Source: Ehretia macrophylla
Lineage: Eukaryota; Streptophyta; Magnoliopsida; Boraginales; Ehretiaceae
NCBI GenBank assembly: GCA_037974665.1
Contig: CM075766.1
Span: 52,212,569-52,276,568, forward strand
Length of the DNA: 64,000 nt
Reading direction: 5' to 3'
Below are positions 9,298-64,000 of this stretch, in pieces (position 1 is the stretch's first letter; the number at the start of each line of letters is the position of its first letter). Both the position numbers and the translations under genes were made by a program. The notes below the pieces were generated by a model. It worked only from the letters and a program-made list of their open reading frames with translations, ran no database searches and was not told the DNA's origin.

Positions 9298-9299
9298 GG

Positions 9300-16041: not shown

Positions 16042-18329
16042 TGTCACGCCCCGACCCGACCCAGCAAAAGGCCAAGCCCGGACCCGACACACGGACGGAG
16101 TCTACTCTGTACCGCGGACGATCCGAAAACCCTAAAATCAATATAATACTTGCGAAAGCCATATAATAATCAAAACAAGCCAACTTTCTTTAAAAACATA
16201 CATTTCTTATTATCCAACTTTCCAAACCAAAAATGATATGCATACTACACAAGTATTTATGCCACTAATCAATTCCATTAGCATGCATTTTCTTACTAGT
16301 CACAAGAGTATAAGTTATAACTTTACATTCTTCCAACTTATACAACATAAGACCGTAGAGGCCTCAAACTAGAAAATACATACAAGGCTACAAGCCTCAA
16401 AATTAAGCGACATCCAAGCAATATACATAACAAGCAAGGCTCGCACAAAATCTGGTAACCAACCACCAGCAAAGTAGAGAAGTGCTATCACGGAAACACC
16501 TCCACCTGCTCCTCCTCCTCCTCCTCTATTACCTCGATAGGGTCTGCTTCAACTACTCTTATAAAAATATAGTATAGAGAGGAATGAGCAAAAACTATTG
16601 CTTAGCGAGGGCAATTGGTCTCAAGGACGGAGATAAGAGGAGTATGCAATGCAATTAGCCAAGCAATGCATACAATTATCATTTAAAGACACAAACAAGT
16701 CAATATTATAACAAGGCAAGCATTAAAGACTATAAACATTCATTCAAAGGATACGGTACTCTTTTCACGAGCAACTTTCATTCAAGAATTCGATGACGAC
16801 GCGCCGGCCCAAACCACCTTATAACACCAGTTTGGAATACCCCGGAAGTATCCATCAACCTACGACCCAAAACTCCCTGGGAGGCAACCCAAGTGAGAAA
16901 AGGGAATAGTAGCGGAGCTAGAGCAACCAACACTGGCAACCCAAGGCTACCCAGAGAGGCCCATCACTCACACGCGAGACACTATGCAATGCAAGACTCG
17001 ATACAAGGCGATAAACACGCGATAAAGCCACACGTGGGAGAATAACAAAGTAGGTTACTCTCGCACGCAATAGCAGCAATTGATAAGCAATTCAATCCAA
17101 AACAACTCAAACAAGTATTTCAAGCAACCCTAAGCATTCTATAGGCATAAAGTCAAGAAAACAAGCAAAAACACAAATCGGCCCCAACTATCAAAACACT
17201 ACCATTTCCAAACGAGCCACGAGTTCTAGAAACCGACTTCGCCAACCCTCCTAGGTCACCATAAGGCACGTCTAAAGACCCCGGAACCTTACTTTACCCT
17301 AGAATTCGCACAAAGACCCGATTTCCCCCTTTCTCGTTTGAACTACAACTATACCAACCAAACACCCAACCAACACCATAATCGCACCAAAAGTGCTTCC
17401 ATGGCCTCCTGATACAATGCCAACACGCAAAATGAGAAAACGCTAAAGTCGACCTAAACGACCCCGACTTTCCAAAAGGCATAATTCTCATTTTTTTCCA
17501 TTACGCAACCCAAACAAACCATGCATTTAGGCATTCTAGCACACCTAGTATAATTCTACATCAACGGACAGCATAACGGAACAACTTCATCGTTCCAAGG
17601 GTTTACTATTCATAAAACACTATTCAACACCCAAATTTAATTGCAATCTCAACATTTAACTGCAGAAAATGTTAAAAAGCTATAAATACACGTTCTACAA
17701 TAGCCAAGGAACATTCTAGAAGCATCAAAACGCTTTAAACAATAATCTACGGATAAAATCTAAAAATTGCAAAGTTGATACACTAAACATTTAAATGCGC
17801 AAATAGCATGCTTCCCTCACCTCAGGTACTCCTAGTCGCTAGGAAAACAACGCTAGTCACCTCGGAAACCACCCCGCACGAGCTCACGCGAAGATTGATC
17901 GATTGAAAGGTTGAAATCTTTTTTTTTCTTCTTGGAAGCTCACGGCCTGGGCTGCTGTTTAGCTGCTATTTTTTTTCTTTATTTCCAAAGTTAAAAGCTT
18001 ATTTAAATGCTAAGTGGTCAAATGGTCAAAAGCCTAGGTCAAACCACTTAAAACTTGGTCAAAGGCCCTTATTTTGTGCATTTTAAAGCCATTTTAGTTA
18101 AGAAAAGATTAATTAAAGCTAGCAACAATTAAAATATAAAATTTAAGTCATCTAAATACTAGTTTCACTATTTGCTGAGGACTAGAAACCGTTCTCTAGC
18201 TATCGCTCCCTAAATGCAATGCACGTTGCGATAGCGAGAAAGTAACAATTAATTCACAAAGAATTTAAGGAAATATAAATTTCAAAATAATAAACAAGGC
18301 ATTTTCACATTCCGGGCTCGGGTATTACA
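16042..18329 (-). repeat. E4 3' LTR
   Basis: 2288 bp. On the minus strand it begins TGTAATACCCGAGCCCGG and ends GGGTCGGGGCGTGACA. It shares the E1/E3 block with AGAGAGGCCCATCACTCAC (about 16954-16972). The inverted repeat is at 16586-16603 and an acidic open-frame tail at 16488-16556. A donor-like GAGGTGAGGG (minus strand) is at 17814-17823. Confidence 0.93.
16488..16603 (-). other. LTR inverted repeat plus acidic frame tail (E4 3' LTR)
   Basis: On the minus strand, arms GAGCAA-type and TTGCTC-type (16586-16591 and 16598-16603, with one G-T pair) are followed by a frame reading VVEADPIEVI, then six E, then QVEVFP and stop at 16488-16490. The partner LTR has three E at the same place, a length change of whole codons. 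No ATG opens this frame nearby. It has the same position as the acidic frame in the E5/E6 LTRs. Confidence 0.55.
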
Positions 18330-18342: not shown

Positions 18343-21300
18343 AAAACAATTGCGCCCACGCAATTCTTACCTGGTCAACAAACAACTCCGAATACTGATC
18401 TCGAACTTGGTCATCTCTTTCCCAAGTCGCTTCCTCAAACCCATGATGATTCCATAGAACCTTTACTAACAGAATACTCTTTCTGCGAAGCTCCTGAACT
18501 TTCCGATCCACAATTCGAATCGGTTTCTCTTCATAAGACAACTTCTCTTCAATCTGCAAAGGCTCTGGTTCAAGTACAGGTGAAGGGTCTGGATGGTACT
18601 TCTTCAACATAGACACATGGAACACATCGTGCTGTCTCGACAAGCTCGGAGGCAAAGCTAACCGATAAGCCAAAGGACCTACCTTTTCGGTGATCTCATA
18701 CGGACCCACATATCTGGGACTAAGCTTCCCGCTCTTACCGTGCCGAATCAATCCCTTCTGTGGAATAATCTTAAGAAACACCCAATCTCCCAAATCAAAC
18801 TCAAGATCCCGACGGTGCTTATCCGCATAACTCTTCTGACGACTCTGAGCTGTAAGCATACGTTGGCGAATAAGGTGAAAATTATCTACCATCTTAATCA
18901 TCTCAGGTAACACAGTCGGATTAATTGTTCTCATCTCTCCAACCTCTTCCCAATATAACGGGGATCTGCATTTCCGACCATACAACGCCTCGTAAGGAGC
19001 CATACCTATAGTAGATTGATAACTATTGTTGTAGGCGAACTCCGCTAAAGGCAAAAACTTATCCCAGTTCTTCCCAAAGTCAAGCACACATGCCCGAAGC
19101 ATGTCTTCCAAGATCCTGATAGTTCTCTCAGACTGGCCATCAGTTTGTGGATGATATGCAGTGCTGAAGCTCAACTTAGTTCCCATGGCCTCTTGCAACT
19201 TCTGCCAAAAACGAGATATGAATCTGGGATCCCTATCTGACACTATACTCTGTGGCACACCATGCAATCTCACAATATTAGCAACATAAAGCTCAGCTAG
19301 CTTATCAAGGCTATCCTGTTTGTTCACGAGAATAAAATGTGTAACTGTAGTCAAGCGGTCCACAACAACCTAAACAGAATCACATCCTCTCAGAGATCTA
19401 GGAAGATCGGTCACAAGGTCCATTGTTATATGTACCCAGTTCCATTGCGGAATCGACAACGGCTGTAGAAGTCCGGCTGGCCTCTGATGCTCAACTTTAA
19501 CCCTCTGACAAGTCAAACATCTGGATACATACCCAACAATCTCCCTCTTCATATTGTTCCACCAGAAGTGTTGTTTCAAATCTTTATACATTTTAGTACT
19601 GCCCGGGTGAATTGTATATCTCGAATTATGTGCCTCGGACAGAATCTCATTCTTCAAAGTCGGATCATCAGGAACACATACTCTATCCTTGAACCTGAAG
19701 ATACCATCTGCATGTAATTTAAACTCTGACTCTCCCCCTTTAGCTTTTTCTTGGATCTTCAAGAGGTGAGGATCAGTCTTCTGAGCCTCTCTGATCTGTG
19801 CTAGCAACCCTGACTGAATCTGCAAACTAGCAAATCGAATCCCTACCTCAGTAGCTTCTGGTTTCCATGAACAAATTTCTTCCAAAGTCTCCCAATCCTT
19901 GATAATCAAGCTTGCAACAGTAGCCTTTCGGCTCAAAGCATCAGCAACAACATTTGCCTTACCTGGCACGTAGTTAATAGAACAGTTGTAACCACTCAAT
20001 AGCTCTAGCCACCTCCGCTGCCTCATATTAAGATCCTTCTGTGAAAACAAATACTTGAGACTCTTGTGGTCAGTAAAAATTTCAAATCTGCAACCCCACA
20101 AGTAGTGACGCCACTTCTTCAAAGCAAACACAACTGCAGCTAACTCAAGATCATGTGTAGGGTAATTGACTTCATAAGGTTTCAACTTCCTCGAAGCATA
20201 AGCAATCACCTTACCATTCTGCATTAAAACATAGCCCAATCCTTCCTTAAATGCATCACTGTAGACAACGAAGTTCTCTGTTCCCTCAGGTAAAGCTAGT
20301 ATAGGAGCTGTAGTTAGTCTCTTCTTCAATTCTTAGAAACTGGATTCACATTTAGCATCCCAGTTGTAAGCAACTTTCTTCCGAGTCAACTGGCTCAAAG
20401 GTCCAAAAATTTTGGAAAAGTCTTTAACAAATCTCCGGTAGTAACCTGCCAATCCAAGAAAACTCCGAATCTCAGACACCGACTCAGGTCTCTTCCAAGA
20501 TGAAACAACCTCAATCTTAGCTGGGTCCACTGAAATTCCTCGATCTGAAATGATATGGCCTAGAAAAGATATCTGATTCAACCAGAACTCGCACTTACTG
20601 AATTTAGCAAAAAGCTTGTTTTCCTGCAAAGTCTGTAGCACAATCCTCAAGTGTTGCTCATGTTCAGCCTCATTCTTCGAATACACTAAAATGTCGTCAA
20701 TAAAGATCACGACAAACTGATCAAGGTAAGGTCGAAAAACTCTCTGCATCAAGTCCATGAATGCGGCTGGTGCATTCGTCAAACCAAACGGCAAAACAAC
20801 AAATTCATAGTGACCATATCTAGTCCTGAAAGCCGTCTTCGGTATATCGTCACTCTGTATTCTAAGTTGATAGTAACCTTGCCTCAAGTCAAATTTGGTG
20901 TAAACACTTGCACCCTGCAACTGGTCAAACAATTCTTCAATCAACGGCAAGGGGTATTTGTTCTTAATCGTGACTTGATTAAGTCCCCTGTAATCAATGC
21001 ATAACCGTAGCGTGCCATCTTTCTTTCTCACAAACAACACAGGCGCACCCCACGGCGAAGAACTAGGTTGTATAAACCCTTTCTCAAGCAAGTTCTGAAG
21101 CTGAATTTTTAACTCCTGAAGTTCAGCCGATGCCATTCTATAAGGACTCCTAGAAATTGGCGCAGTGCCTGGCACAAGATCAATCACGAACTCAATCTCC
21201 CTATCCGGTGGTAAACCCGGTAAATCCTCGGGAAATACACCAGGGAAGTCTTTAACAATCGGAACCTCATTCAAACTCAACTTATCAGTAGGCTGATTGA

Positions 21301-23269: not shown

Positions 23270-25549
23270 TGTCACGCCCCGACCCAACCCCGCAAAAGGC
23301 CAAGCCCGGACCCGACACACGGACGGAGTCTCCTCTGTACCGCGGACGATCCGAAAACCCTAAAATCAATATAATACTTGCGAAAGCCATATAATAATCA
23401 AAACAAGCCAACTTTCTTTAAAAACATACATTTCTTATTATCCAACTTTCCAAACCAAAAATGATATGCATACTACACAAGTATTTATGCCACTAATCAA
23501 TTCCATTAGCATGCATTTTCTTACTAGTTACAAGAGTATAAGTTACAACTTTACATTCTTCCAACTTATACAACATAAGACCGTAGAGGCCTCAAACCAG
23601 AAAATACATACAAGGCTACAAGCCTCAAAATTAAGCGACATCCAAGCAATATACATATCAAGAAAGGCTCACACAAAATCTAGCAACCAACCACCAGCAA
23701 AGCAGAGAAGTGCTATCACGGAAACACCTCCACCTGCTCCTCCTCCTCTATTACCTCGATAGGGTCTGCTTCAACTACTCCTGTAAAAATATAGTATAGA
23801 GAGGAATGAGCAAAAACTATTGCTCAGCGAGGGCAATTGGTCTCAAGGACGGAGATGAGAGGAGTATGCAATGCAATTAGCCAAGCAATGCATACAATTA
23901 TCATTTAAAGATACAAACAAGCCAATATTATAACAAGGCAAGCATTAAAGACTATAAACATTCATTCAAAGGATACAATACTCTTTTCACGAGCAACTTG
24001 CATTCAAGAATTCGATGACGACGCGCCGGCCCAAACCACCTTATAACACCAGTTTGGAATACGCCGGAAGTATCCATCAACCTACGATCCAAATCTCCCA
24101 GGGAGGCAACCCAAGAGAGAAAGGGAATAGCAGTGGAGCTAGAGCAACCAACACTGGCAACCCAAGGCTACCCAGAGAGGCCCATCACTCACGCGCGAGA
24201 CACAATGCAATGCAAGACTTGATACAAGGCGATAAACACGCGATAAAGCCACACGTGGGAGAATAACAAAGTAGGTTACTCTCGCATGCAATAGCAGCAA
24301 TTGATAAGCAATTCAATCCAAAACAACTCAAACAAGTATTTCAAGCAACCCTAAGCATTCTATAGGCATAAAGTCAAGAAAACAAGCAAAAACACAAATC
24401 GGCCCCAACTATCAAAACACTACCATTTCCAAACGAGCCACGAGTTCTGGAAATCGACTTCGCCAACCCTCCTAGGTCACCATAAGGCACGTCTAAAGAC
24501 CCCGGAACCTTACTTTACCCTATAACTCGCGCAAAGCCCCGATTTTCCCCTTTCTCATTTGAACTACAACTATACCAACCAAACACCCAACCAACGCCAT
24601 AATCGCACCAAAAGTGCTTCCATGGCCTCCCGATACAATGCCAACACGCAAAATGAGAAAACGCTAAAGTCGACCTAAACGACCCCAACTTTCCCAAAGG
24701 CATAATTCTCATTTTTTCTATTACGCAACCCAAACAAACTATGCATTTAGGCATTCTAGAACACCTAGCACAGTTCTACATCAACGGACAGCATAACGGA
24801 ACAACTTCATCGTTCCAAGGATTTACTATTCACAAAATACTATTCAACACCAAAATTTAATTGCAATCTCAACATTTAACCACAGAAAATGTTAAAAAGC
24901 TATAAATACACGTTCTACAATAGCCAAGGAACATTCTAGAAGCATCAAAACGCTTTAAACAACAATCTACGGATAAAATCTAAAAATTGCAAAGTTGATA
25001 CACTAAACATTTAAATACGTAAATAGCATGATTCCCTCACCTCAGGTACTCCTAGTCGCTAGGAAAACAACGCTAGTCACCTCGGAAACCACCCTGCACG
25101 AGCTCACGCGAAGATTGATCAATTGAAAGGTTGAAATCTTTTTTTTTCTTCTTGGAAGCTCACAGCCTGGGCTGCTGTTCAGCTGCTATTTTTTTTCTTT
25201 ATTTGCTAAGCTAAAAGCTTATTTAAATGCTAAGTGGTCAAATGGTCAAAGGCCTAGGTGAAACCACTTAAAACTTGGTCAAAGGCCCTTATTTTGTACA
25301 TTTTAAAGCCATTTTAGCTAAGGAAAGATTAATTAAAGCTAGCAACAATTAAAATATAAAATTTAAGTCATCTAAATACTAGTTTCACTATTTGCTGAGG
25401 ACTAGAAACCGTTCTCTAGCTATCGCTCCTTAAATGTAATGCACGTTGCGACAGCGAGAAAGTAACAATTAATTCACAAAGAATTTAAGGAAATATAAAT
25501 TTCAAAATAATAAACAAGGCATTTTCACACTCCGGGCTCGGGTATTACA
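23270..25549 (-). repeat. E4 5' LTR
   Basis: 2280 bp, close copy of 16042-18329. The inverted repeat is at 23808-23825, an acceptor-like TTTTTACAG at 23781-23789 (minus strand), and a frame tail reading TGVVEADPIEVIEEEQVEVF-P to a stop at 23716-23718. A donor-like GAGGTGAGGG lies at 25034-25043. Confidence 0.93.
23808..23825 (-). promoter_or_regulatory. Conserved LTR inverted repeat (E4 5' LTR)
   Basis: Arms GAGCAA and TTGCTC pair perfectly around six bases, in the context CCCTCGCT...ATTCCTCTC. The arm sequence differs wholly from the GAGTATAC type of E1-E3, but the place and flanks correspond. Confidence 0.65.
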
Positions 25550-39954: not shown

Positions 39955-42192
39955 ACTATCCTGGTAGGTGTAACGTATGGTCCTAGAATAAAGGACCTTC
40001 CCTCATAGGACGAAAAGCTTGCTTTTTTACCCCCACTCATTACCTTGGCTATTATAGCTTCAATTCAAAATAGAACTCTTTCCCTCTGTCCATCCCTTTA
40101 TCTAATAAGGGGCAGCCAACATTCGTTTTGTTGTCATGATCGTTAGTGCATTCATAAGGCGGCTCAAACAAAAGCAGGATTGGCTCATCGAACACAAACC
40201 ATGTCATAACTATATTCCTTGCCGACCGATCTTCTCTAAAGCATGCCTATCTGGGCACACTGATTGGGATTACCTTATCGTAAGTAAATCATTACCTTTC
40301 TTATAGAATGCTTGTGAAACCCCACTTTCCTGCTTATCTCGTTTTACGTGCTACACCTCATTTTGCGTGCATATGATCTGTTTATGTCCTATAGGACCTA
40401 GAAAGTTATAATTTTGATGTCAATACTCCTAATACGTGCTAAATGTGCATTCATGAAATTTTTATCAAAAACGGAGTCAGAAATTTTATCGTCGATTTTT
40501 AGTGAATAGTATTTTCAAAACACGTCCGCTAAAATTTTGAAACTGGTCTTTTTAACCCTTCTAGACCTAGTCAACGGACTTTAATAGACCTGTGTTTGAT
40601 GAAAACGGTTTTAAAACCGGCTTAAGAATTTATTAGGGTTTTTACACCGACTTTTGCAAAAATCGAGTTTTAAGCCGATTCGGGTGAAATTGTTGGATTG
40701 TAAAACTTCTTGTCACCTAAAAATAATCCACTTGAGCTATCTTAGGAGTTGCATTTTTGTTTTGAGCAAGAAGATAGTTAAAATGCATTTAAAAGACAAG
40801 ATAATGATTTAAAGGACTAAATATTACTTTGACTTTGCATTTTATTTATTTGACCAAACTTTAAATTGCATATAGTCATCAACACACACTAAGCAAAGCA
40901 CAAAACACACTCCAATTGCACACACAAGGCCGAGAGAAAGAAGGAGAAAAAGCCAAAGAGATTTTCAAGGTTTTTCAATCAATTTTTCAAAGAAAAACTT
41001 GGTTTTTTGTCCGTAGAACTTCACACCAACTTGGATTCTTCTTGTTGGGCACGCATAGCACGCATTCCTAGGCTTATATCGCATCAAAGGTGAGAGAAAA
41101 ATTATGGATCTCAAAATGTCATTTTTATACTTTTGCTCATAAATGAAAATTTAACCGTTAGAATTGAAATCTGATGATAGATTATTTCTCCTTGCATGCT
41201 AGGGATCATTTTGATGCAATACTACGAATTTCTGTCGGATGTAGCATAATATTTATTTTTCGGGTATTTAATTTTGATTAAAATGTTCAAAGTTGAATTA
41301 AATGAGTTGTGTTGATCGAAATTGATTGCCGTCGATTTTTAAATACTTGATAATTACGTGTTAGCGCTGTTGTAATGCCGAATTTTCGATTACATTGTTC
41401 GTGTGAAAATCCGGAAAATCCAGCCAATACATCCTAGGGTTTTAGGGTTATCGGGCATGATTTGGAGGTGTTCTGGTGGATTTCCGAGAGGGCTAATGTA
41501 GTAGGTTGAATGGGTGAGTGATAGAAACTGATTTGGCAATGTTTGGATTAGTATATTGTAAGTTATGAATTTTAGAAGTTTAGGTTGTCATTCTTTAATT
41601 TCTTGAACGATGCCTTTAGACGATTGGGTTGTGTTTGAGTGTTGAATGGTGAGTTGTTGATGAGTAATTTAGGGTTTAATTGCGTATATAATGCATGTCC
41701 AGTTAGATGGCCTACTTTGTCATCTAACTTCGTTGTTTGTTGTTTAATTAAATATTGATGTTATATTGATATTATTGATTGATTATTATTGAGTTCGGGA
41801 ATCGGGCACTTTCGTTGCTGATCTCCCAATTGATTGATTGATGATTGATGATGATTATGGAGTCTTGGTATGTGTGTGCCACCTCTCGGGCAGCGTTGGG
41901 CTGTCGGGTTAATAACGGCATGACTGCCATAGGCTACCCCAGCTCGCATGACGGAGGTGTCATGGAGGGAGGGGCTAGTGAGGTACCTCGGGTGCGTGAG
42001 TAATGGGGAGTTATAAGAAGAACGGTTGAGATCGTGATGGCGTTTGGAGCTACACCAAATAGAGTATCCTTTATTGATTGGTTATATAGCTATGTGATGA
42101 TAGTATTATTTGTGTTATTGTGTGTTTACTGACTCAAAGGATTATTCCAAGGAGTTTAGTAGACCTTGCTCGAGATCTATCGGATCCTCACT

Positions 42193-42212
42193 GGGCTTAT
42201 GTATATAAGCTC
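42193..42212 (+). promoter_or_regulatory. Conserved LTR inverted repeat (E5 5' LTR)
   Basis: Arms GGGCTTAT and ATAAGCTC around four bases; one G-T pair, the rest Watson-Crick. TATATAAG overlaps the right arm, so a TATA-box role is an alternative. Confidence 0.65.
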
Positions 42213-42227
42213 ACTCTCTATTATTGC

Positions 42228-42329
42228 ATGCTTACAGGTGTTGCAGAGCCGGATTACGGGTACGTTCCTCCTTAGGAGGAAAATGTGCCTTACGTGGACG
42301 AGTCATATGTTCCTGAGTCTTATCCATGA
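42228..42329 (+). other. Acidic LTR frame, E5 5' LTR copy
   Basis: Counterpart of 49634-49735, with the same 102-base extent from ATG to TGA and the same conserved centre (VPYVDES). This copy is not whole. See the 3' LTR copy for the description. Confidence 0.5.
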
Positions 42330-42756
42330 TTTTATGTTGTTTAATATCATGTACATTAGCTTAGTAGACTTTTATATGCTTTATGGTTCTTATTGTAATA
42401 GATGTAGAAAAGATGATGATCCAAATGATGTTAACTTAGTGGCTTTCTTTTGTCTATGGTTAAGTTGTTAGATGGGTCTCAACTTATTTTTGAAATGTAT
42501 GATAAGGTTGAGGTATTATATGTTATGTTGGAGCGGAGGCAGATAACGAAGACTGATTATTGTATATTACGGTTATGTTGTGTGTTGTTATGCTATTGAG
42601 GAGTTGTTGTTTGTATGGTTATAGAATTGGATGTTTAATGTTATTAATGAGGTTGGTTTAGAACCTCAGAAATCTATTTACTGTCGTTATGCTGCCGAAA
42701 TTCCGTTGCGTCCTGACTGATTGTAGGTGGGGTCGAGTTGGGACGTGACATTTAAG

Positions 42757-42770: not shown

Positions 42771-42849
42771 ATGTTAGTTGTTAGCCGGGGTATTCTCGGA
42801 ATGTGGGTAAAGGTCTTAGCATGAAATATGTTTGAAAAGAAAGAAAAGT

Positions 42850-43015: not shown

Positions 43016-43044
43016 TAAACTGTGCTAACTCTTTGATTAGTACG

Positions 43045-46000
43045 ATGGCCGGTAGACCGAGGACTCGTGGTAGGCCCGAGATTGTAGATGAGGTCCCTGG
43101 TAATGTGGCACAGGGCAGTGATGGGGGTGATGGCAGGTTAGGGGCAGCAATGGATCGGATTGCTGATTTGATGGCTAGGCAGGCCCAGTTGTTAGCAGGT
43201 CAGGCTGTTCAGACTCAGGCGTTGCAGGCTCAGATACAGAATGTACAGGGAGGTAATCACGGTCGAGATACTATGAAGGAGTTTCTGGGTACTATCCTCC
43301 TAGATTTTAGGGAGAGCCTGATGATAGGAAGGCCGAGTCGTGGATTAGTAAGTTAGAGAAAATTTTTGATTCTCTCGGGTACACTGATGAGAGGAAGGTG
43401 ACTTGTGCTGTCTATTTGCTTGATGATGAGGCAGAAGATACCTTTCTGACTGCTTTTAGGGATAAGTATGTCCCGAGGGTTGCACGGGAAAGGAGAAAGG
43501 CTGAGTTCTTGTCTTTGGTACAGGGGGATTCTACTGTGGCTCAGTATGAGGCTACATTCACTAGGTTGTCCCGATATGCACTGGAGTTTGTAGCTGTGGA
43601 GGAGAGGAAGACCCGTAGATTTATGTTGGGATTGAGGCCCGAGATTCAGGATGCAATGGCTCTGAATCGCTATGATATCTTTACTGAGGCTTTTGATGCA
43701 GCTTCTAGGTTAGAGAAGAGGAAAGTGGATCATATTGTCTCCAGTCAGCCTAGTAAGAGGCCGTATCAGCCACAGGGCCAGCAGGTTATATATAGGCCTC
43801 TAGTACAGCAGGTTGTCTACAGGCCACCAGCCCAGCAGAGTTCTTATAGGCCACAAGGTCAGCAGAGTTACTATTGGCCTCAGTTTCAGCAGAGGCCATA
43901 TCAGGTTCAGACTCAGTATAGGCCAGCCCAGTCTCAGGGTCAGTACAGGCCTAGTGTGGTGAGACCTCAGCAGCAGGCTGTATCAGCTGCTTCATCAGCT
44001 TCTGGTTCTTCTAGGGGCAGTGTTAGTGCCACATCATCGCAGTGTAATTACTGCAAGCGCCCAGGGCATGTGGAGTCCGACTGTAGGGTAAAGGCAAGGA
44101 CATGTTTAGGTTGTGGTAGCATCGAGCATAGGGCGAAGGATTGCCCTAGATATGCGAGGACTGAGGGTCGAGCAGCGACTCAGGGTTACCAGGGTAGGCC
44201 TACAGGCAGTGTACCACAGCAGCAGCGGGTTCAGGCTCGGGCTTATGCAGTTGATATGGAGGAGATGCCTGAGGAGACTGCAGTGGTGGAAGGTAACTTC
44301 CTTATACTTGATCAACTTGTTAAAGTGTTGATTGATTCTGGTGCTACGCATTCTTTCATTACTCCTGCTTGTGTGCAACGTGTTAAATTGCAACCTGAAA
44401 GATTGCCTTTTGTGGTTGAGATTAGTACATCTTTGACTGATAAGTATGTTACTGGCTTAGTATGTAAGGATTGTATAATACATGTTAAGGGAAATAATTT
44501 TCCTTCGGACCTTATTTTATTTCTTATCCGGGGGTATGATGTTATTCTGGGTATGGATTGGCTTTCTAAGTATGATGCCCAATTGAACTGTAGAACCAAG
44601 GTAGTACAGTTTTGATTGCCGGATCAGCCAGTAGTAGAAGTAGTGGGTAACCGGGGTGCTAAGACGAGTTTTGTTATCTCAGCAACTAAAGCCGTTAAGT
44701 TGGTGAGTAAGGGGTGTTCGGGTTATCTAGCTTATTTGATCAACAAGCCATCTGATAAGCTACAGCTAGAGGAAGTCCCTATTATCCGGGAATATCCTAA
44801 TGTATTTCCCAAGGAGTTGCCAGGGTTGCCGCCAGAGAGGGATATAGAGTTTGTGATTAATCTTGTTCCCAGTACTCAACCTATTTCTAAATCGGCGTAC
44901 CGGATGGCACCATCTGAGTTGAAGGAGTTGAAGACTCAGTTACAGGAGTTATTGAAGAAAGGATTCATTCAGCAGAGTTCTTCACCTTGGGGAGCTCCTG
45001 TTTTATTTGTGAAGAAGAAGGATGGTACTTTGAGATTGTGTATTGATTACCGTGGTTTGAATCAGGTGACCATCAAGAATAAATATCCTTTGCCACTGAT
45101 TGATGAGTTGTTTGATCAACTTCAGGGAGCCAAAGTCTATTCTAAATTTGATTTGAGGCAGGGGTATTATCAGCTTCGGATTCGTACGGAGGATGTTCCG
45201 AAGTCTGCCTTCAGGACTCGGTACGGGCATTATGAGTTTGTTGTTATGCCCTTTGGTTTGACTAATGCACCGGCAGCATTCATGGATCTTATGCATCGAG
45301 TCTTTTAGCCGTACTTGGACCAGTTCGTGGTGATTTTTATTGATGATATCTTGGTCTATTCTAAATCTGAATCGGAGCACGAGCAACATCCACGGCTTGT
45401 ATTAGAGAAGTTGCAGGAGTATCAGTTGTTTGCCAAGTTCAGCAAATGTGAATTTTGGCTGCAACGGATTTCTTTTCTTGGCCATGTTATTACACAGAGC
45501 GGTATTTCTATAGATCCCACTAAGATTGAATCGGTGATGTCTTGGAAGCGGCCAGAGAGTGTTACTAATGTCCGTAGCTTTCTTGGCTTGGCGGGTTATT
45601 ACCGTAGGTTTGTCAAGGACTTCTCGAAGATTGCGGGGCCACTGTCTAAGTTGACTCAGAAACAGACTATCTTTAATTGGGATGAGAAGTGTGAGAGTGG
45701 GTTTCAGGAGTTGAAAAAGAGGTTGACTACCGCTCCAGTACTTGCTCTACCAGAGGGGACCGATAATATGGTCATTTACAGCGATGCATCCAAGGAGGGC
45801 TTGGGATGTGTTCTTATGCAGGATGGCCGAGTTATTGCCTATGCTTCTCGAAAGTTGAAACCTTATGAAGAAAATTATTCAACTCATGATCTTGAGTTGG
45901 CAGCAGTTGTCTTTGCACTCAAGAAGTGGCGTCATTATATGTGGGGAAGTAAGTTTGAAATTTTCACTGATCATAAGAGTCTGAAGTACTTGTTCTCACA

Positions 46001-47774
46001 GAAGGAGTTGAATATGCGCCAGCGAAGGTGGATGGAGCTTCTTGGAGATTATAATTGTTCTATCAATTATCTGCCTGGAAAGGCAAATGTTGTGGCAGAT
46101 GCTCTCAGCCGGAAGGCTAGTATTTCTTGTTTGGCTGTCAAGAAGCGGGAGGTTCTTGAGGAGTTTAGTTATTGGAGACCAGAGTTGACTCAGGTTGGAG
46201 TGATGTGTTCACATCTCCGTATTCATCCTTTATTATTGTCTCAGATCAGGGAAGCTCAGCAACTTGATGTTAAACTTCAGAAGATCAAGGATCAGATCAC
46301 GGGTGATCAGTCTGACTTCAAACTGCATGAGGACGGTATTCTTCAGTTTCGGAACAGGGTTTGTATTCCCGATGAACCGGGCTTGAGGCGAGGTATTCTG
46401 GAGGAAGCTCATAATTCTAAATATACTATTAATCCCGGTGGAACCAAGATGTATCGGGATTTGAAGCAACATTACTGGTGGAACAACATGAAGAGAGAGG
46501 TTGCTCAGTTTGTGTCTAGATGTTTAACTTGTCAGAGAGTGAAAGCCGAGCATCAATGACCTGCAGGTTTGCTTCAGCCGTTGGCTATACCAGAGTGGAA
46601 ATGGGAGCATATTACGATGGACTTCGTCACTGGGTTGCCTAGATCACCGAGGGGTAATGATGCAGTTTGGGTTGTCGTGGATCGTTCGACGAAGACAGCT
46701 CATTTTATTGCAATGAGGATGGGAGATGAGGTTACAAAGTTGACGGACCTCTATCTGGATCAGATTGTTAGACTTCACGGTATTCCCTCTAGTATTGTCT
46801 CTGATCGAGATCCTCGATTTACTTCTCGTTTGTGGGAGAAACTTCAGGAGACCTTAGGTACTCAGTTGAACTTCAATACCGCGTATCATCCACAGACCAA
46901 CGGTCAGTCTGAGCGGACTATTCAGATTCTGGAAGATATTCTTAGGGCTTGTGTTCTGGACTTCGGGAAGAACTGGGAGAAACATCTATCACTTTCCGAG
47001 TTTGCCTATAACAATAGTTATCAAGCTACTATTGGGATGGCGCCTTTCGCAGCTCTTTACGGTCGTAAGTGCCGTTCACCTTTATATTGGGACGAGGTAG
47101 GAGAGATGAAGACTGTTGATCCGACTATTATGCTAGAACTTCTTGAGAAGATTGAGAATGTTCAGTTAATCAGGCAGAGAATGCTTACGGCGCAGAGTAG
47201 ATTCAAGAGTTATGCTGATAAGCGTCGTCGAGACTTGGAGTTTGCAGTTGGAGATTGGGTTTTATTGAGATTGTCTCCTCGAAAGGGGTTTGCTCGTTAT
47301 GGTAAAGGTGGAAAGCTGAGTCCGAGATTTGTTGGGCCGTTTGAGATTACTGGCAGGGTTGGTAAGTTGGCATATCGGTTGGCTTTACCGGAGAACTTCT
47401 CTAATGTCCACGATATGTTTCACGTGTCTAATTTGCGGAAATATAATCCGGATCCTTCTCATATTCTTGAGCCAGAGCCGTTACAGCTTCGAGAGAATTT
47501 GACTTATGACGAGCGTCCGATTCGTATTCTAGATCAGATGGACCGAGAGTTGAGGTCGAAGAGGATTCCGATGGTTAAGGTGTTGTGGAAGCATCACGGC
47601 ATTGAGGAAGCTACGTGGGAGAGACGAGATCAGATGCAGCAGCAATACCCAGATCTATTCCGCACATCAAGTAAGAATTTCGAGGACGAAATTTCTATAA
47701 GGTGGGAGAATGTGAAACCCCACTTTCCTTCTTATCTCGTTTTACGTGCTATACCTCGTTTTACGTGCATATGA
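43045..47774 (+). pseudogene. E5 gag-pol region
   Basis: Gag begins MAGRPRTRGRPEIVDEVPGN. A Q/Y/P-rich linker (about 43750-43970) precedes two zinc knuckles (CNYCKRPGHVESDC, CLGCGSIEHRAKDC; 44040-44145). Protease is near 44320-44370 ([16 protein letters not shown]). Reverse transcriptase is about 44830-45400 ([25 protein letters not shown]). RNase H is about 45770-46120 ([35 protein letters not shown]). The integrase zinc domain is about 46400-46560 and its core 46600-46990 ([28 protein letters not shown]). The GPY/F-like part is near 47320-47440 and a chromodomain-like end near 47510-47660 (VLWKHHGIEEATWERR). The frame runs through the polypurine tract about 60 bases into the 3' LTR, as do the E6 frames. 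It is broken in about four places. It was probably a chromatin-targeting chromovirus when active. Confidence 0.93.
47699..47710 (+). other. Polypurine tract of E5
   Basis: AAGGTGGGAGAA directly before TGTGAAACC of the 3' LTR. Here the tract lies inside the pol reading frame. Confidence 0.75.
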
Positions 47775-49598
47775 TCTGTTTATGTGCTATAGGACCTATA
47801 AAGTTATAATTTTGATGTCAATACTCCTAATACGTGCTAAATGTGCATTCATGAAATTTTCATAAAAAACGGAGTCAGAAATTTTATCGTTGATTTTTAG
47901 TGAATAGTGTTTTCAAAACACGTCCGCTAAAATTTTGAAACTGGTCTTTTTAACCCTTCTAGACCTAGTCAACGGACTTTAATAGACCTGTGTTTGATGG
48001 AAACGGTTTTAAAATTGGCTTAAGAATTTATTACGGTTTTTACACCGACTTTTGCGAAAATCAAGTTTTAAGCCGATTCGGTTGAAATTGTTGGATTGTA
48101 AAACTTCTTGTCACCTAAACATAATCCACTTGAGCTATCTTAGGAGTTGCATTTTTGTTTTCAACAAGAAGATAATTAAAATCTATTTAAAAGACAAGAA
48201 AATGATTTAAAGGACTAAATATTACTTTGACTTTGCATTTTATTTATTTGACCAAACTTTAAATTGCATATAGTCATCAACACACACTAAGCAAAGCACA
48301 AAACATACTCCAATTGCACACACAAGGCCGAGAGAAAGAAGGAGAAAAAGCCAAAGAGATTTTCAAGGTTTTTCAATCAATTTTTCAAAGAAAAACTTGG
48401 TTTTTTGTCCGTAGAACTTTGCATCGACTTGGATTCTGCTTGTTGGGCACGCATAGCATGCATTCCTAGGCTTATATCGCATCAAAGGTGAGAGAAAAAT
48501 TATGGATCTCAAAATGTCATTTTTATACTTTTGCTCATAAATAAAAATTTAACCGTTAGAATTGAAATATGATGATAGATTATTGCTCCTTGCATGCTAG
48601 GGATCATTTTGATGCAATACTACAAATTTCTGTCGGATGTAGCATAATATTTATTTTCTGGGTATTTAATTTTGATTAAAATGTTCAAAGTTGAATTAAA
48701 TGAGTTGTGTTGATCGAAATCGATTGCCGTCGATTTCTAAATACTTGATAATTACGTGTTAGCGCTGGTGTAATGCTGAATTTTCGATTACATTGTTCGT
48801 GTGAAAATCCAGAAAATCCAGCCAAGACATCCTAGGGTTTTAGGGTTATCGGGCATGATTTGGAGGTGTTCTGGTGGATTTACGAGAGGGCTAATGTAGT
48901 AGGTTGAATGGGTGAGTGATAGGAACTGATTTGGCAATGTTTGGATTAGTAGATTGTAAGTTATGAATTTTAGAAGTTTAGGTTGTCATTCTTTAATTTC
49001 TTGAACGATGCCTTTAGACGATTGGGTTGTGTTTGAGTGTTGAATGGTGAGTTGTTGATGAGTAATTTAGGGTTTAATTGCGTATATAACGTATGTCCGG
49101 TTAGATGGCCTACTTTGTCATCTAACTTCGTTGTTTGTTGTTTAATTAAATATTGATGTTATATTGATGTTATTGATTGATTATTATTGAGTTCGGGAAT
49201 CGGGCACTTTCGTTGTTGATCTCCCAATTGATTGATTGATGATTGATGATTGATGATGATTATGGAGTCTTGGTATGTGTGTGCCACCTCTCGGGCAGCG
49301 TTGGGCTGTCGGGTTGATAACGGCATGACTGCCATAGGCTACCCCCAGCTCGCATGACGGAGGTGTCATGGAGGGAGGGGCTAGTAAGGTACCTCGGGTG
49401 CGTGAGTAATGGGGAGTTATAAGAAGAACGGTTGAGATCGTGATGGTGTTTGGAGCTACACCAAATAGAGTATCCTTTATTGATTGGTTATATAGCTATG
49501 TGATGATAGTATTATTTGTGTTATTGTGTGTTTACTGACTCAAAGGATTATTCCAAGGAGTTTAGTAGACCTTGCTCGAGATCTATCGGATCCTCACT

Positions 49599-49618
49599 GG
49601 GCTTATGTATATAAGCCC
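49599..49618 (+). promoter_or_regulatory. Conserved LTR inverted repeat (E5 3' LTR)
   Basis: Perfect arms GGGCTTAT and ATAAGCCC around GTAT. In the 5' LTR one base of the right arm differs and leaves a G-T pair, so pairing is kept in both. Confidence 0.7.
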
Positions 49619-49633
49619 ACTCTCTATTATTGC

Positions 49634-49735
49634 ATGCTTATAGGTGTTGTAGAGCCGGATTACGGGTACGTGCCTCCTGAGGAGGAAAATGTGCCTTACG
49701 TGGACGAGTCATATGTTCCTGAGTCTTATCCATGA
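49634..49735 (+). other. Acidic 33-codon frame inside LTR (unrecognised)
   Basis: From ATG at 49634 to TGA at 49735 the frame reads MLIGVVEPDYGYVPP, then EEEN, then VPYVDESYVPESYP. It is acidic and rich in Y, P and V. The same 102-base frame with ATG and TGA in register is found in the E5 5' LTR and in all three E6 LTRs (54559-54660, 60223-60324, 63461-63562, minus). Against 63461-63562, codons 9-33 differ at 13 codons, of which 10 are synonymous, a coding-like pattern. An upstream in-frame ATG at 49526 gives a 69-codon version. ATG lies 16 bases after the inverted repeat; the CTTATAG/CTTACAG just after it could also be a splice acceptor. I do not know this peptide family. Confidence 0.55.
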
Positions 49736-50156
49736 TTTTATGTTGTTTAATGTCATGTACATTAGCTTAGTAGACTTTTATATGCTTTATGGTTCTTATT
49801 GTAATAGATGTGGAAAAGATGATGATCCAAATGATGTTAACTTAGTGGCTTTCTTTTGTCTATGGTTAAGTTGTTAGATGGGTCTCAACTTATTTTTGAA
49901 ATGTATGATAAGGTTGAGGTATTGTATGTTATGTTGGAACGGAGGCAGATAACGAAGACTGATTATTGTATATTACGGTTATGTTGTGTGTTGTTATGCT
50001 GTTGAGGAGTTGTTGTTTGTATGGTTATAGAATTGGATGTTTAATGTTATTAATGAGGTTGGTTTAGAACCTCGGAAATCTATTTACTGTCGTTATGCTG
50101 CCAAAATTCCGTTGCGTCCTGACTGATTGTAGGTGGGGTCGAGTTGGGGCGTGACA

Positions 50157-50570
50157 ATGCCCAAGTGGGTACAACCCTTTCCCTTAAAGGAGACTATCTC
50201 GTAGAGCGCTAAGGGTCTTGAGAACGATTTCCACCAAACATTGCTTGAGCTCACTTAGCCTTGGTCGAGGGTACAGACCTCTGGAAAAGCACTTTTCTAG
50301 CTTAATGAGAGAATACTGTTTTCAACGCTGGCATGAGCCATTCAAGTTCAGACTTTCTCCCTTCCTCCCTACCATGGGAAGAAATAGCTAAGAAAAAGGT
50401 AAATGGGGGATCAACAACAAAACATCTTCTTTCTTTGAGTCGAGTTTACACCTACCAACATAAGAGTGCTTCTAAGCGCTAGTGAACATGTAGAGAGAGG
50501 TTCGGCAGAAAGTCATTCGTACTAGAATAAAATGCTTCAGAAAGTACATCAAATAGGGAATCCATTCCTC
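50157..50570 (+). repeat. 3.3-kb tandem duplication, copy 1 (right part)
   Basis: Begins ATGCCCAAGTGGGTACAACC right after E5 and matches 53494-53906. It ends at CCATTCCTC, where copy 2 begins after five unmatched bases (50571-50575). Confidence 0.9.
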
Positions 50571-50778
50571 TATCTAGCGTAGCGATCACTGAACGATTTC
50601 TTCCAATGCTTATTATAAATATTCTTGGATGATATAGATGGTAGGAACAATGAAGCCGATTCTTCATCTACACTGGAGAACCGGCATCTCAAAAAGAAAG
50701 GAAAGCGAAAAGGTTCGCTGTCTTGGCTGAAACTGAAGAGGTTGAGTAGTCACTAATAATAATAGTATGCTTGCAAAG

Positions 50779-50865
50779 GTATGAAGTAAGTCGACTGATA
50801 AGGAGAGGTATGAAGTAAGTCGACTGATAAGGAAAGGTATGAAGTAAGTTGACTGATAGGGAGAG
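50779..50865 (+). repeat. 3 x 29-bp tandem repeat, copy 2
   Basis: Units at 50779-50807, 50808-50836 and 50837-50865, form GTATGAAGTAAGTCGACTGA + TAAGGAGAG; the same repeat as at 37620-37707. Confidence 0.9.
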
Positions 50866-50964
50866 GTTTGAATCCGCGTAAGTATTGGTCAAATATCGTC
50901 ATTGTAGCTCTAGTTCGAGGAGAAGAGCTGTCGTCCCCACAAGGGAGGTTAAAAAGATGGTCAA

Positions 50965-51168
50965 TTGGCCTCTTGGTATATGTACGGTAAGAACACTGCC
51001 TTTACTTATGTTGGCGAGGCAGTGAACATCTATTTCAGGAAAAGAAGGGCAAGAAGAAAGCGGCCATTTCCCGGGGTCAGACTCAGAAAGAAGTTACTGC
51101 CTCGGGAGCCCTGCATATGCCGAATACACTATTACAGGGGGTGGGATCCTGAATCTACTTTAGACTAG
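50965..51168 (+). CDS. Hypothetical 67-codon basic open frame, copy 2
   Basis: Counterpart of 37807-38010 with equal length, ending RGWDPESTLD. The differences change amino acids often. Function not recognised. Confidence 0.25.
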   Translation: MASWYMYGKNTAFTYVGEAVNIYFRKRRARRKRPFPGVRLRKKLLPREPCICRIHYYRGWDPESTLD

Positions 51169-52946: not shown

Positions 52947-53138
52947 CTATTCTATACGATAGCACCAGTCCCCTTCCTCTTCCGATTGATTGATGGAGAT
53001 GGGGTTAAGGAAGGATGAGAGGAGCGCACGCCTTCGATAGTCAAATAGGGAAGTTGATGTAATAGGATTGACTTTCCGGGATTTCCAAAAAATGCCGCAC
53101 CCGGTTTTGCTCAACGACACCTTTCTCTCGCGAACCAT
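52947..53138 (-). CDS. Hypothetical 63-codon open frame, copy 2
   Basis: Counterpart of 39763-39954, starting MVRERKVSLSKTGCGIFWKS and ending EEEGDWCYRIE. No recognised domain. Confidence 0.2.
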   Translation of the reverse strand: MVRERKVSLSKTGCGIFWKSRKVNPITSTSLFDYRRRALLSSFLNPISINQSEEEGDWCYRIE

Positions 53139-53906
53139 ACTATGCTGGAAGGTGTAACGTATGGTCCTAGAATAAAGGACCTTCCCTCACAAGACGAAAA
53201 GCTTGTTTTTTTACCCCCACTCACTACCCCGGCTATTATAGCTTCAGTTCAAAATAGAACTTTTTCCCTCTATCCATCCCTTTATCTAATAAAGGGGCAG
53301 CCAACATTCGTTTTGTCGTCGTGATCTTTAGTGCATTCATAAGGCGGCTCAAACAAAAGCTGGATTGGCTCACCGAACACAAATCAAGTCGTAACTATAT
53401 TCCTTGCTAACCGGTCTTCTTTGAAGCATGCCCATCTGGGTACACTGATAGGGATTACCTTATCGCAAGTGAATCATTACCTTTCTTATAGAATGCCCAA
53501 GTGGGTACAACCCTTTCCCTTAAAGGAGACTATCTCGTAGAGCGCTAAGGGTCTTGAGAACGATTTCCACCAAACATTGCTTGAGCTCACTTAGCCTTGG
53601 TCGAGGGTACAGACCTATGGAAAAGAACTTTTCCAGCTTAATGAGAGAAGACTGTTTTCAACGCTGGCATGAGCCATTCAAGTTCGGACTTTCTCCTTTT
53701 CTCCCTACCATGGGAAGAAATAGCTAAGAAAAAGGTAAATGGGGGATCAACAACCGAACATCTTCTTTCTTTGAGTCGATTATACACCTACCAACATAAG
53801 AATGCTTCTAAGCGCTAGTGAACATGTAGAGAGAGGTTCGGCAGAAAGTCATTCGTACTAGAATAAAATGCTTTAGAAAGTACATCAAATAGGGAATCCA
53901 TTCCTC

Positions 53907-54558: not shown

Positions 54559-54660
54559 TCAAGGACAAGACTCTGGCACAAAGGACTCGTCCACATACGG
54601 CACATTCTCAGCTTCTTGAGGCACGTACCCGTAATCTTGCTCAATAACACCTGTATGCAT
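54559..54660 (-). other. Acidic LTR frame, E6 left copy
   Basis: 102 bases from ATG to TGA in register with the E5 frame; reads MHTGVIEQDYGYVPQ, EAEN, VPYVDESFVPESCP. Differences from E5 are mostly at third codon positions (TAC/TAT, TCA/TCC, CCT/CCG). Confidence 0.55.
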
Positions 54661-56579: not shown

Positions 56580-57305
56580 TTCTTCCCCCTTAAAGAAATT
56601 TTGTCCCCGAAATTCTTACTTGAAGAACGGAAAAGATCTGGATACTGATGCTGCATCTGATCTCGCCTTTCCCAGGTAGCTTCCTCGATACCGTGATGCT
56701 TCCACAACACCTTGACTATCGGAATCTTCTTCGACTTTAACTCTCGTTCCATCTGATCAAGAATACGAATCAGCCGCTCATCATAGGTCAGATTTTCACG
56801 AAGCTGTAGTGGCTCTGTCTCAAGAATATGAGAAGGATCCGGATTATATTTTTGCAAATTAGATACATGAAATACATTGTGGACATTAGAGAAATTCTCT
56901 GATAAAGCCAACCGATATGCCAACTTGCCCACTCTGCCGGTAATCTCAAACGGCCCCACAAACCTCGGACTCAGCTTACTACCTTTACCATAACGAGAAA
57001 ACCCCTTACGAGGAGACAATCTCAAGAAAACGCGATCCCCGACTGCAAACTCCAATTCCCGACGACGCTTATCAGCATAACTCTTGAATCTACTCAGCGC
57101 CGTAAGCATTCTCTGCATGATCAACTGAACATTCTCAATCTTTTCCAGAAGCTCTGGCATAATAGTCGTATCAATAGTCTTCATCTCCCTTACTTCATCC
57201 CAATACAAAGGTGAACGACACTTACGACCGTAAAGAGCTACAAAAGGTGCCATCCCAATAGTAGCTTGATAACTATTATTATAGGCAAACTCGGCAAGTG
57301 GTAGA
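56580..57305 (-). pseudogene. E6 integrase/chromodomain block 1
   Basis: Encodes the later part of integrase and the chromodomain-like end: [17 protein letters not shown]-like start near 57240, GPY/F-like RFVGPFEITGRVGKLAY, FHVSNLQKYNPDPSHIL, and VLWKHHGIEEATWERR near 56680. The frame continues through the polypurine tract (56580-56590) into the LTR. It is a remnant that cannot act as an integrase, since the catalytic core is not included. Confidence 0.9.
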
Positions 57306-60222: not shown

Positions 60223-60324
60223 TCAAGGAAAAGACTCAGGCACATAAGACTCATCCACGTAAGGCACAATTTCCCCTTCTGGAGGCATGTACCCGTAATC
60301 TTGCTCAAGGACACCTGTATGCAT
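60223..60324 (-). other. Acidic LTR frame, E6 middle copy
   Basis: 102 bases ATG to TGA; reads MHTGVLEQDYGYMPP, EGEI, VPYVDESYVPESFP. Confidence 0.55.
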
Positions 60325-62294: not shown

Positions 62295-63021
62295 TTCTCC
62301 CCCGTTAAAGAAATTTCGTCCCCGAAATTCTTACTTGAAGAACGGAAAAGATCTGGATACTGATGCTGCATCTGATCTCGCCTTTCCCAGGTAGTTTCCT
62401 CGATACCGTGATGCTTCCACAATACCTTGACCATCGGAATCTTCTTCGACCTCAACTCTCGTACCATCTGATCAAGAATACGAATCGGCTGCTCGTCATA
62501 GAGTCAGATTCTCACGAAGCTGTAGTGGCTCTGGCTCAAGAATATGAGAAGGATCCGGATTATATTTCCGCAAATTAGACACATGAAATACATCGTGGAC
62601 ATTAGAGAAATTCTCCGGTAAAGCCAACCAATATGCCAACTTGCCCACTCTGCCGGTAATCACAAATGGCCGCACAAACCTCGGACTCAGCTTACTACCT
62701 TTACCATAACGAGCAAACCCCTTACGAGGAGACAATCTCAAGAAAACGCAATCCCAGACTGCAAACTCCAAATCCCGACGACGCTTATCAGCATAACTCT
62801 TGAATCTACTCTGCGCCGTAAGCATTCTATGCCTGATCAACTGAACATTCTCAATCTTCTCTAGAAGCTCTGGCATAATAGTCGTATCAATAGTTTTCAT
62901 CTCCCCTACTTCATCCAAATACAAAGGTGAACGACACTTACGACCGTAAAGAGCTGCAAAAGGTGCCATCCCAATAGTAGCTTGATAACTATTGTTATAA
63001 GCAAACTCGGCAAGTGGTAGA
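62295..63021 (-). pseudogene. E6 integrase/chromodomain block 2
   Basis: Same extent and content as block 1: [46 protein letters not shown], and VLWKHHGIEETTWERR near the polypurine tract (62295-62305). It is broken; a remnant of integrase and the chromodomain-like tail only. Confidence 0.9.
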
Positions 63022-64000
63022 TGTCACGCCCCAACTCGACCCCACCTAAAATCAGTCAGGATGCAACGGAATTTTGGCAGTATAATGACAGTAACTAAGA
63101 CACCGAGGCTCTAAACCAACCTCTTAGAACATCATACAACCAAACTCCTCAACCAAACAATAATCAATGCCTCAATACCATTAGCAACATACAACATAAC
63201 CATATTATACAATAATTATTCCTAGACGATCCATTCATAGTTAAACGCCTCCGTTCCAACATATTACCTTAACTTCAACATACATATCAAAATGGATTCT
63301 AAACCAACTTAACAACCTAGATCATAACAAAAGAAAGACTACTAAGTTAGCATCAATTAGTTCATTATCTTTACTACAACTTATACATCATAAACTACAA
63401 AGTAAATGAAAGACAACTAGTTTAATATACAAGATAATAGAGTATTCAACATCTCAAGAATCAAGGACAAGACTCTGGCACATAAGACTCATCCACGTAA
63501 GGCACAATCTCCCCTTCTGGGGGCACGTATCCGTAATCTTGCTCAAGGACATCTGTATGCATGCAATAATAGAGAGTGAGCTTATATAAAACGAGCTCAG
63601 CGAGGATCCGATTGATCTCTAACAGTATTTACTATACTTATTGGAAATGATCCTTTGAGCAAGTAAACACACAAATAAACATCAATACAATATAAACACA
63701 TAACTATAATGACCAATCAATAAAGGATACTCAATTTGGTATAGCTCCAAACGCCATCACGATCTCAACCATTCTTCTTGTAACTCCCTATTACTCACGC
63801 ACCCGAGGTACCTCACTAGCCCCTCCCTCCATGACACCTCTGTCATGCGAGCTGGGGGTAGTCTCTGGTAGTTATGCCGTTATCAACCCGACAGCTCGAT
63901 GCTGCCCGAGATGTGGCACACACATACCAAGACTCAACAATAATAATAAACATCATTCATAGGACGACAATCTAGCAAAATTGCCTATCTCCCGGTTCAT
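63022..64000 (-). repeat. E6 right LTR, cut by window end
   Basis: The end-proximal 979 bases of a third E6 LTR (GGGGCGTGACA at 63022 on the minus strand), with acidic frame 63461-63562 and inverted repeat 63578-63598 (arms GAGCT and AGCTC). Close to the middle LTR. Confidence 0.9.
63461..63562 (-). other. Acidic LTR frame, E6 right copy
   Basis: 102 bases ATG to TGA; reads MHTDVLEQDYGYVPP, EGEI, VPYVDESYVPESCP. Compared with the E5 3' LTR copy, 10 of the 13 differing codons in the last 25 are synonymous. Confidence 0.55.

Follow-up and report, generated by a model that had tools for sequence, protein, structure and literature searches.

In animal retroviruses, the 3' long terminal repeat (LTR) can hold protein-coding genes expressed from spliced mRNA, such as sag of mouse mammary tumour virus and nef of human immunodeficiency virus (HIV). 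Among plant elements, the centromeric chromoviruses of the CRM clade are described, in the text available, as carrying the C-terminal part of integrase inside the 3' LTR (Neumann et al., 2011, PMC3059260), and the gag-pol open reading frame (ORF) of Beetle7 and Bingo1 of beet is likewise said to end inside the 3' LTR (PMC3605345). According to the accessible part of a 2025 review, plant LTR elements are generally intron-less, Ogre and EVADE being notable exceptions (PMC12786077). The present analysis concerns a stretch of 64,000 nucleotides of Ehretia macrophylla (contig CM075766.1), called here the window, which is AT-rich, evidently plant, eukaryotic DNA with several LTR retrotransposons. 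The LTRs of one group of related elements (E5, E6 and E7) hold a frame of 102 bases, which is probably the coding part of the exon that closes the element's own gag-pol gene at its 3' end and would be joined to it by splicing. This reading is based on the coding constraint of the tail encoded by the frame, the absence of such constraint in the first 33 codons past a donor at the end of pol, a phase match in three cases, and a hairpin with paired changes. The coordinates of the features are collected in Table 1.

The original prediction placed the 102-base frame, with ATG and TGA in register, in all five LTR copies of the E5/E6/E7 group, and this was found to be correct. None of the copies contains an insertion or deletion, and the frame is open in four of the five, the copy at 42228 having an internal TAG. 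A hand count for the copies at 49634 and 63461, in which 13 of the last 25 codons differ and 10 of these differences are synonymous, proved exact on recount. The view that a coding-like, acidic sequence under purifying selection lies within the LTR was upheld by the ratio of non-synonymous to synonymous divergence (dN/dS) and by frame controls. The dN/dS, calculated by the Nei-Gojobori method over codons 5-33, i.e. the 29 codons downstream of a splice-like AG inside the frame, was low and not near 1, ranging from 0.05 to 0.18 in nine of ten copy pairs (0.05-0.13 where the 49634 copy was compared with those of E6 and E7) and reaching 0.29 for the pair of E5 LTRs, between which there are only 2 differences. 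Synonymous changes made up 11 of 18 between E5 and E6 (4.0 expected, P=4e-4) and 13 of 18 between E5 and E7 (4.1 expected, P=1e-5). In a random-substitution test with the observed transition share, amino-acid-changing codons were below expectation in all six pairs (P from <0.0002 to 0.056). All these statistics rest on copies within this one window, and the five copies stand, as the elements are read, for three independent lineages (E5; E6; the element with the copies at 60223 and 63461), the pairwise P values not being independent. Codon positions were also compared with the adjacent LTR in a sliding control along the LTR alignment, which used gap-free, mutually overlapping windows that lay outside the frame and held at least 40% of its number of differences. 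The third-position excess of the frame was reached by 0/1203, 5/1161, 0/265, 19/886, 0/255 and 0/208 control windows in six pairs, so that it was unmatched by any outside window in four of them. Constraint on RNA structure or regulatory DNA may in principle mimic such a codon pattern, and the frame adjoins a conserved hairpin and is functional DNA in any case. However, the third-position excess is strong in one frame only, the other two reading frames of the same bases giving dN/dS values of 0.70-6.97 (three pairs), and the residues common to E5 and the more distant element E3 are recoded synonymously, which makes this explanation very improbable. The substitution pattern confirms that the frame evolves as protein-coding DNA under purifying selection.

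The bases preceding the frame show an anatomy resembling a 3' splice site. The LTRs of E5/E6/E7, E3 and the pol-less element E1 have a common upstream layout, consisting of CRCT, a hairpin, a branch-point-like stretch (e.g. CTCAC, CTCAT), a pyrimidine- or T-rich run and AG. The hairpin arms vary by family and still pair (GGGCTTA with TAAGCCC, GAGCTT with AAGCTC, GAGCAA with TTGCTC, GAGTATA with TATACTC), with two-sided changes at pairs 3, 5, 6 and 7. This comparison covers 13 of 14 copies, the E1 copy at 27870 being excluded for want of an anchor, and the 3' arm was set at the best-pairing offset. Single mismatches occur in E6x (the 3' LTR side of E7), in E7 and in one E1 copy; neither E3 copy forms pair 8, and the E3_3 copy has one further mismatch. 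The E5 hairpin folds with -12.4 kcal/mol (z -3.6), and the folding energy was under the shuffle mean in all six hairpins tested, weakly so in E7 (z -1.4). The AG is present in all five E5/E6/E7 copies and at the aligned place in one of the two E3 copies. The ATG of the frame (49634-49636) falls within this predicted splice-site region, 10 bases ahead of the predicted exon, and the sequence TATATAAG beside it is the 3' arm of the hairpin. A TATA box with a transcription start site at the ATG was also considered, and was rejected, because TATATAAG forms an arm of the hairpin and neither E3 nor E1 has it at the corresponding position.

The LTR of E3 gave no match to the E5 LTR at E 0.01; a homologous frame lies at the matching place, about 450 bases from the LTR end in E3 and 421 in E5. 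The E3 5' LTR reads TTTTTACAG/GA GTA GTT GAA GCA GAC ... TTT CCG TGA (the slash marking the predicted junction), which translates to (G)VVEADPIEVIEEEEQVEVFP and stop, and the corresponding reading in E5 is (G)VVEPDYGYVPP...YP and stop. Five of the first six residues are common to both, each by a different synonymous codon, and third positions account for six of the seven base differences in these six codons (P=4e-4); past them the likeness is limited to composition and the final F/Y/C-P-stop. The original prediction of a self-contained, ATG-to-TGA ORF of 33 codons was not borne out by this comparison, since the homologous frame has no ATG in either E3 LTR, and neither contains an ATG-started ORF of at least 20 residues ending at the TGA of the frame. 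Judged from these homologues, the frame is older than its ATG. A micropeptide or upstream ORF translated from this ATG in an LTR transcript would account for the ATG and TGA kept in five of five E5/E6/E7 copies and for the low dN/dS, the latter being measured, however, downstream of the splice-like AG. Of the two codons between the ATG and that AG, codon 2 carries a non-synonymous difference between E5 and E6/E7, and a non-synonymous difference in codon 3 is confined to the 49634 copy. Moreover, the ATG sits in the layout of hairpin, branch point and AG that E3 and E1 also possess. Therefore, an ATG-started ORF is probably the wrong description of the frame, the anatomy shared between the families being that of a 3' splice site, and we regard the micropeptide as improbable.

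The best candidate partner upstream of this acceptor is the GTAAG donor with which pol ends. In E5, E6 and E6x, TCA A/GTAAGA directly follows the chromodomain-like end of pol in phase 1, which is the phase required by the LTR acceptor (/GT); donor and acceptor phases thus agree in three of four elements, E3 being the exception. The predicted introns are 1973 (E5), 1969 (E6) and 2020 (E6x) bases long. Ranked with an approximate donor matrix, the pol-end donor was 7th of 356 GT sites in the E5 interior, 2nd of 49 in the partial E6, 2nd of 50 in the partial E6x and 1st of 326 in E3. Between E5 and E6, the last 40 pol codons ahead of the donor showed a dN/dS of 0.06 with 12 of 17 changes synonymous, the 33 codons past it in the same frame 0.93 with 4 of 18, and the LTR tail 0.10 with 11 of 18 (one-sided Fisher test: P=0.005 before versus after the donor, P=0.02 tail versus after the donor). 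The synonymous divergence of this pair is similar in the tail and in pol (0.57 and 0.51). Between E5 and E6x the respective dN/dS values were 0.05, 0.94 and 0.13, and for E5 against E6 and E6x the value past the donor was 0.90-1.01 when 20 codons were taken and 0.93-0.94 when 33 were. The pol frame enters the LTR for about 60 bases, and no constrained continuous gag-pol ORF reaching into the 3' LTR was found. This change from low to about 0.93 and back to low across the donor indicates that the direct continuation of pol through the polypurine tract (PPT) into the LTR is not selected as protein, whereas the LTR exon is. In E1, the hairpin on the PPT side is present, but the donor place lacks a GT and the acceptor is not followed by a similar frame, which is as expected if both donor and tail serve pol.

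Several observations weigh against a spliced pol tail. The E5 donor, A/GTAAG, is only moderate, as its rank shows. In E3, the phase 0 donor does not suit the phase 1 acceptor of the 5' LTR, so that the joined frame stops right past the junction, and in the 3' LTR of the same element the aligned AG is lost. E3 is an old copy containing in-frame stops. Its three long ORFs (18341-22468) nevertheless follow directly on one another in a single frame, and therefore the mismatch is not dismissed as decay: either that copy or the splice model is at fault. Two of the seven E1 copies lack the AG, which is kept in the other five. The comparison of E6 with E6x is uninformative to weak, with a dN/dS of 0.34 before the donor (5 changes), 0.18 in the tail, and 0 synonymous and 6 non-synonymous changes after the donor. 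The phase match in E5, E6 and E6x has to be counted as one event because of shared ancestry, to be expected by chance in about 1 of 3 cases, and is weak alone. Furthermore, the sample of lineages is small (three and E3), and the stretch past the donor includes the PPT and a hairpin as well, which means that other constraint also bears on its changes. The E3 phase would also be accounted for if the LTR exon were spliced to another upstream exon, in gag, the leader or at an internal donor, so that a subgenomic RNA encoded a separate small protein in the manner of Cer1 or EVD. Two other good GTAAG donors of E3, at 19962 and 18738, would be phase 1 by arithmetic on their positions, and spliced subgenomic RNAs are described, in the source text available, for other LTR elements. 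Such an arrangement is nevertheless unlikely, as both E3 donors lie inside conserved pol coding sequence and have no counterpart among the 12 best listed for E5, and as the stop of pol constraint at the pol-end GTAAG would be left unexplained.

If the frame is the last exon of gag-pol, the hairpin, branch point and AG in the 3' LTR would form a 3' splice site, and the pre-mRNA would be spliced from the GTAAG donor past the chromodomain-like pol end, over the PPT and U3, into the LTR exon. The integrase would thereby gain an acidic C-terminal tail of about 29 residues (20 in E3) without Lys or Arg, ending at the TGA inside the LTR, while unspliced RNA would remain the genomic template. The exon copy in the 5' LTR would be untranslated and carried along by LTR duplication; the TAG of the 42228 copy fits this model, since a 5' LTR copy would be free to decay. 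The tail may act with the chromodomain in the choice of integration site or may contact chromatin or hold a host factor, a role suggested only by its place beside the chromodomain. We infer both the splicing itself and this role of the tail from the sequence. A three-exon layout is proposed more tentatively, and we consider it possible rather than likely: an ATG-free exon in the 5' LTR would be spliced to gag over an ATG-rich R/U5/leader, and pol to the coding last exon in the 3' LTR. LTR stretches ending at GTGAG contain no ATG in 187 bases of E5, none in 154 of E3 and one in 143 of E1, the starts of these stretches being chosen by the analyst. The E5 R/U5/leader past GTGAG has 36+25+16 ATGs and, at its end, CTAAC...ATTAG ahead of a gag-like ATG at 43045, this copy being frame-shifted further on in gag. 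In such a layout, one duplicated LTR would provide a 5' non-coding exon, an intron and a C-terminal coding exon, with splicing parting mRNA from genome RNA. The GTGAG that closes the ATG-poor stretch in the E5, E3 and E1 LTRs could also suggest a two-exon gene situated entirely within the LTR and spliced from this donor. However, the 59 codons before GTGAG, in the frame of the tail, have no ATG in the three E5/E6 LTRs read, and a TGA stands at the E3 junction; the in-LTR gene was rejected on these grounds and is scarcely credible.

The pieces of E5 gag-pol, interrupted by in-frame stops and readable only separately, comprise gag, protease, reverse transcriptase, RNase H, integrase and a chromodomain-like end. 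The Pfam order of the E5 and E3 pieces (gag, protease, reverse transcriptase, RNase H, integrase) is that of a plant Ty3/gypsy chromovirus. Pfam matched SH3_Tf2-1 at the integrase C-terminus and gave no chromodomain match at E 0.001; the pol end EEATWER..YPDLF is taken by us to resemble the end of a chromodomain. The original prediction named no family for the peptide, and none of the four open copies has a Pfam match; the five open tails listed are all devoid of K and R. A PDB sequence search with a mixed peptide gave a best E of 0.17, taken as noise. Among viral contigs, a protein pattern search for relatives returned 7 pattern matches, none of them a relative, and two DNA patterns returned one and three loci; one DNA pattern in genome contigs returned one locus. 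These five loci showed no pol relative by tblastn (best E 1.1) and were taken as chance matches in bacterial or phage DNA. None of 55 pattern matches to an RNase H/integrase profile in genome contigs was a relative.

E5 and E6 are 77% identical across the LTR and 79% across the pol end and LTR. E7 and E6x are treated as one element, with the copy at 63461 in the 5' LTR (E7) and that at 60223 in the 3' LTR (E6x). The pol ends of E6 and E6x are close (proportion of synonymous differences, pS, 0.09) and their LTR tails distant (pS 0.43), a contrast pointing to LTR exchange between lineages. E5 is inserted into the first copy of a stretch of about 3.3 kb that is present twice with 93-97% identity (37414-40311 with 50157-50570, and 50572-53906). 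A further hairpin lies between the pol end and the PPT, adjoining the predicted donor (47676-47693, plus strand; 18365-18348, minus; 11191-11208, plus), with paired changes between arms AATTTCG and CGAAATT in E5 and AATTGCG and CGCAATT in E3 and E1; it is disrupted in E6 (z +0.7). E1 is located at 6480-14043, with fragments at 248-2587, 3022-5864, 27607-30047 and 57893-59876, and consists of 2.8-kb LTRs flanking a 1.9-kb interior. A tblastn search of this interior (9298-11226) for pol gave no matches, and E1 is therefore probably non-autonomous. The LTRs of some E1 copies look chimeric, with an E3-like and an E1-like half. Within the predicted LTR intron, E3 and E1-type LTRs, other parts of which match little, share a block of about 210 bases (E3 LTR 24245-24036, minus strand; E1 LTR 12941-13150, plus; others) at 78-94% identity, and this raises the question of whether it is a structured or cis-acting element. 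Outside the studied region, a gapped match to the bacterial-type small-subunit rRNA model RF00177 (36091-36568, plus strand, 122 bits), probably an organellar rRNA fragment within nuclear DNA, was the only Rfam hit.

Table 1. Positions of the elements, LTRs, frames and predicted splice features in the window (a slash in a sequence marks a predicted exon-intron junction)
Feature	Position	Strand	Remarks
102-base frame, E5 copies	42228-42329; 49634-49735	+	
102-base frame, E6 and E7 copies	54559-54660; 60223-60324; 63461-63562	-	
E5	40313-50156	+	LTRs ~2.44 kb; 5-bp flanking repeat ATGCT/ATGCC (slash separating the two repeats) on both sides
E5 5' LTR	40313..42750	+	Self-alignment and sequence
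E5 predicted 5' non-coding exon in 5' LTR	40903..41089	+	187 bases, no ATG, ends CAAAG/GTGAGA; start a guess
E5 5' LTR copy of exon	42238..42329	+	Internal TAG
E5 gag-pol coding region, most of it	43311..47670	+	Pfam matches and ORFs
E5 pol-end predicted donor	47671..47676	+	A/GTAAGA; phase 1; reading frame of ORF 46560-47774
E5 predicted intron	47671..49643	+	1973 bases: PPT, U3, upstream part of 3' LTR
E5 3' LTR	47711..50156	+	Self-alignment
E5 3' LTR hairpin and predicted 3' splice site	49592..49643	+	GGGCTTA with TAAGCCC, branch-point-like CCCAC, TTATAG/
E5 3' LTR predicted terminal coding exon	49644..49735	+	2 bases of split codon, then VVEPDYGYVPPEEENVPYVDESYVPESYP, stop TGA
E6, 3' part	~57350-54120	-	Related to E5
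E6 pol-end predicted donor	56614..56619	-	A/GTAAGA; phase 1
E6 3' LTR copy of exon	54559..54650	-	Acceptor ATACAG/ ends at 54651
E7 element (3' LTR side labelled E6x)	5' LTR 64000-63018; 3' LTR 62294-59876	-	Internally deleted; related to E5
E7 element (E6x) pol-end predicted donor	62329..62334	-	A/GTAAGA; phase 1
E7 element 3' LTR (E6x) copy of exon	60223..60314	-	
E7 element 5' LTR copy of exon	63461..63552	-	
E3	25549-16042	-	pol 72% like E5
E3 pol-end predicted donor	18365..18370	-	CAG/GTAAGA; best of 326 GT sites; phase 0
E3 5' LTR homologous frame	23716..23780	-	VVEADPIEVIEEEEQVEVFP, TGA, after TTTTTACAG/; no in-frame ATG upstream
E3 3' LTR homologous frame	16488..16558	-	6-base in-frame insertion; aligned AG now AA, another AG one base further

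If the LTR frame is indeed the spliced last exon of gag-pol, the predicted integrase C-termini of such chromoviruses would be wrong by about 30 residues past the chromodomain, in the part thought to guide integration. The element could then allocate part of its RNA to the genome and part to mRNA, and solo LTRs would bring a ready-made acceptor and a coding terminal exon close to host genes. E5 presumably belongs near the Tekay/Del plant chromoviruses, and its primer site is taken to be like the tRNA-Met one. The likeness consists in the order of gag, protease, reverse transcriptase, RNase H and integrase and in the chromodomain-like integrase end, but an LTR exon such as that of E5 is not mentioned for this clade in the available text of the literature found. 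The products of sag and nef are separate accessory proteins with their own start codons, whereas the E5 frame, in a retrotransposon of plants, is predicted to encode a tail at the C-terminus of Pol. In the accessible text of the open-access literature, no case of an LTR intron or of an LTR-borne C-terminal exon was found. In CRM elements and in Beetle7 and Bingo1 the ORF extends into the 3' LTR, and no intron is spoken of in the portions available (PMC3059260, PMC3605345); in E5, unlike in these elements, there is no constraint on the sequence that directly continues pol, and the coding part is set about 1.9 kb inside the LTR, following a predicted intron. From the text at hand, Cer1 CERV of C. 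elegans is similar in being a Ty3/gypsy element with a multi-exon spliced mRNA and a TTTCAG acceptor, but it encodes a separate regulatory protein, and its last ORF is placed after pol and before the LTR, not inside it (PMC10309623). EVADE (EVD) of Arabidopsis, a Ty1/copia element, resembles E5 in having an intron that gives a second RNA, as far as the review describes it (PMC12786077). Ogre, of the Tat lineage of plant Ty3/gypsy elements, is similar in its partial splicing, by which one RNA serves as genome and as polyprotein mRNA, in the text available (PMC6317226, PMC12786077); unlike in Ogre, the predicted intron of E5 spans from the end of pol to the LTR.
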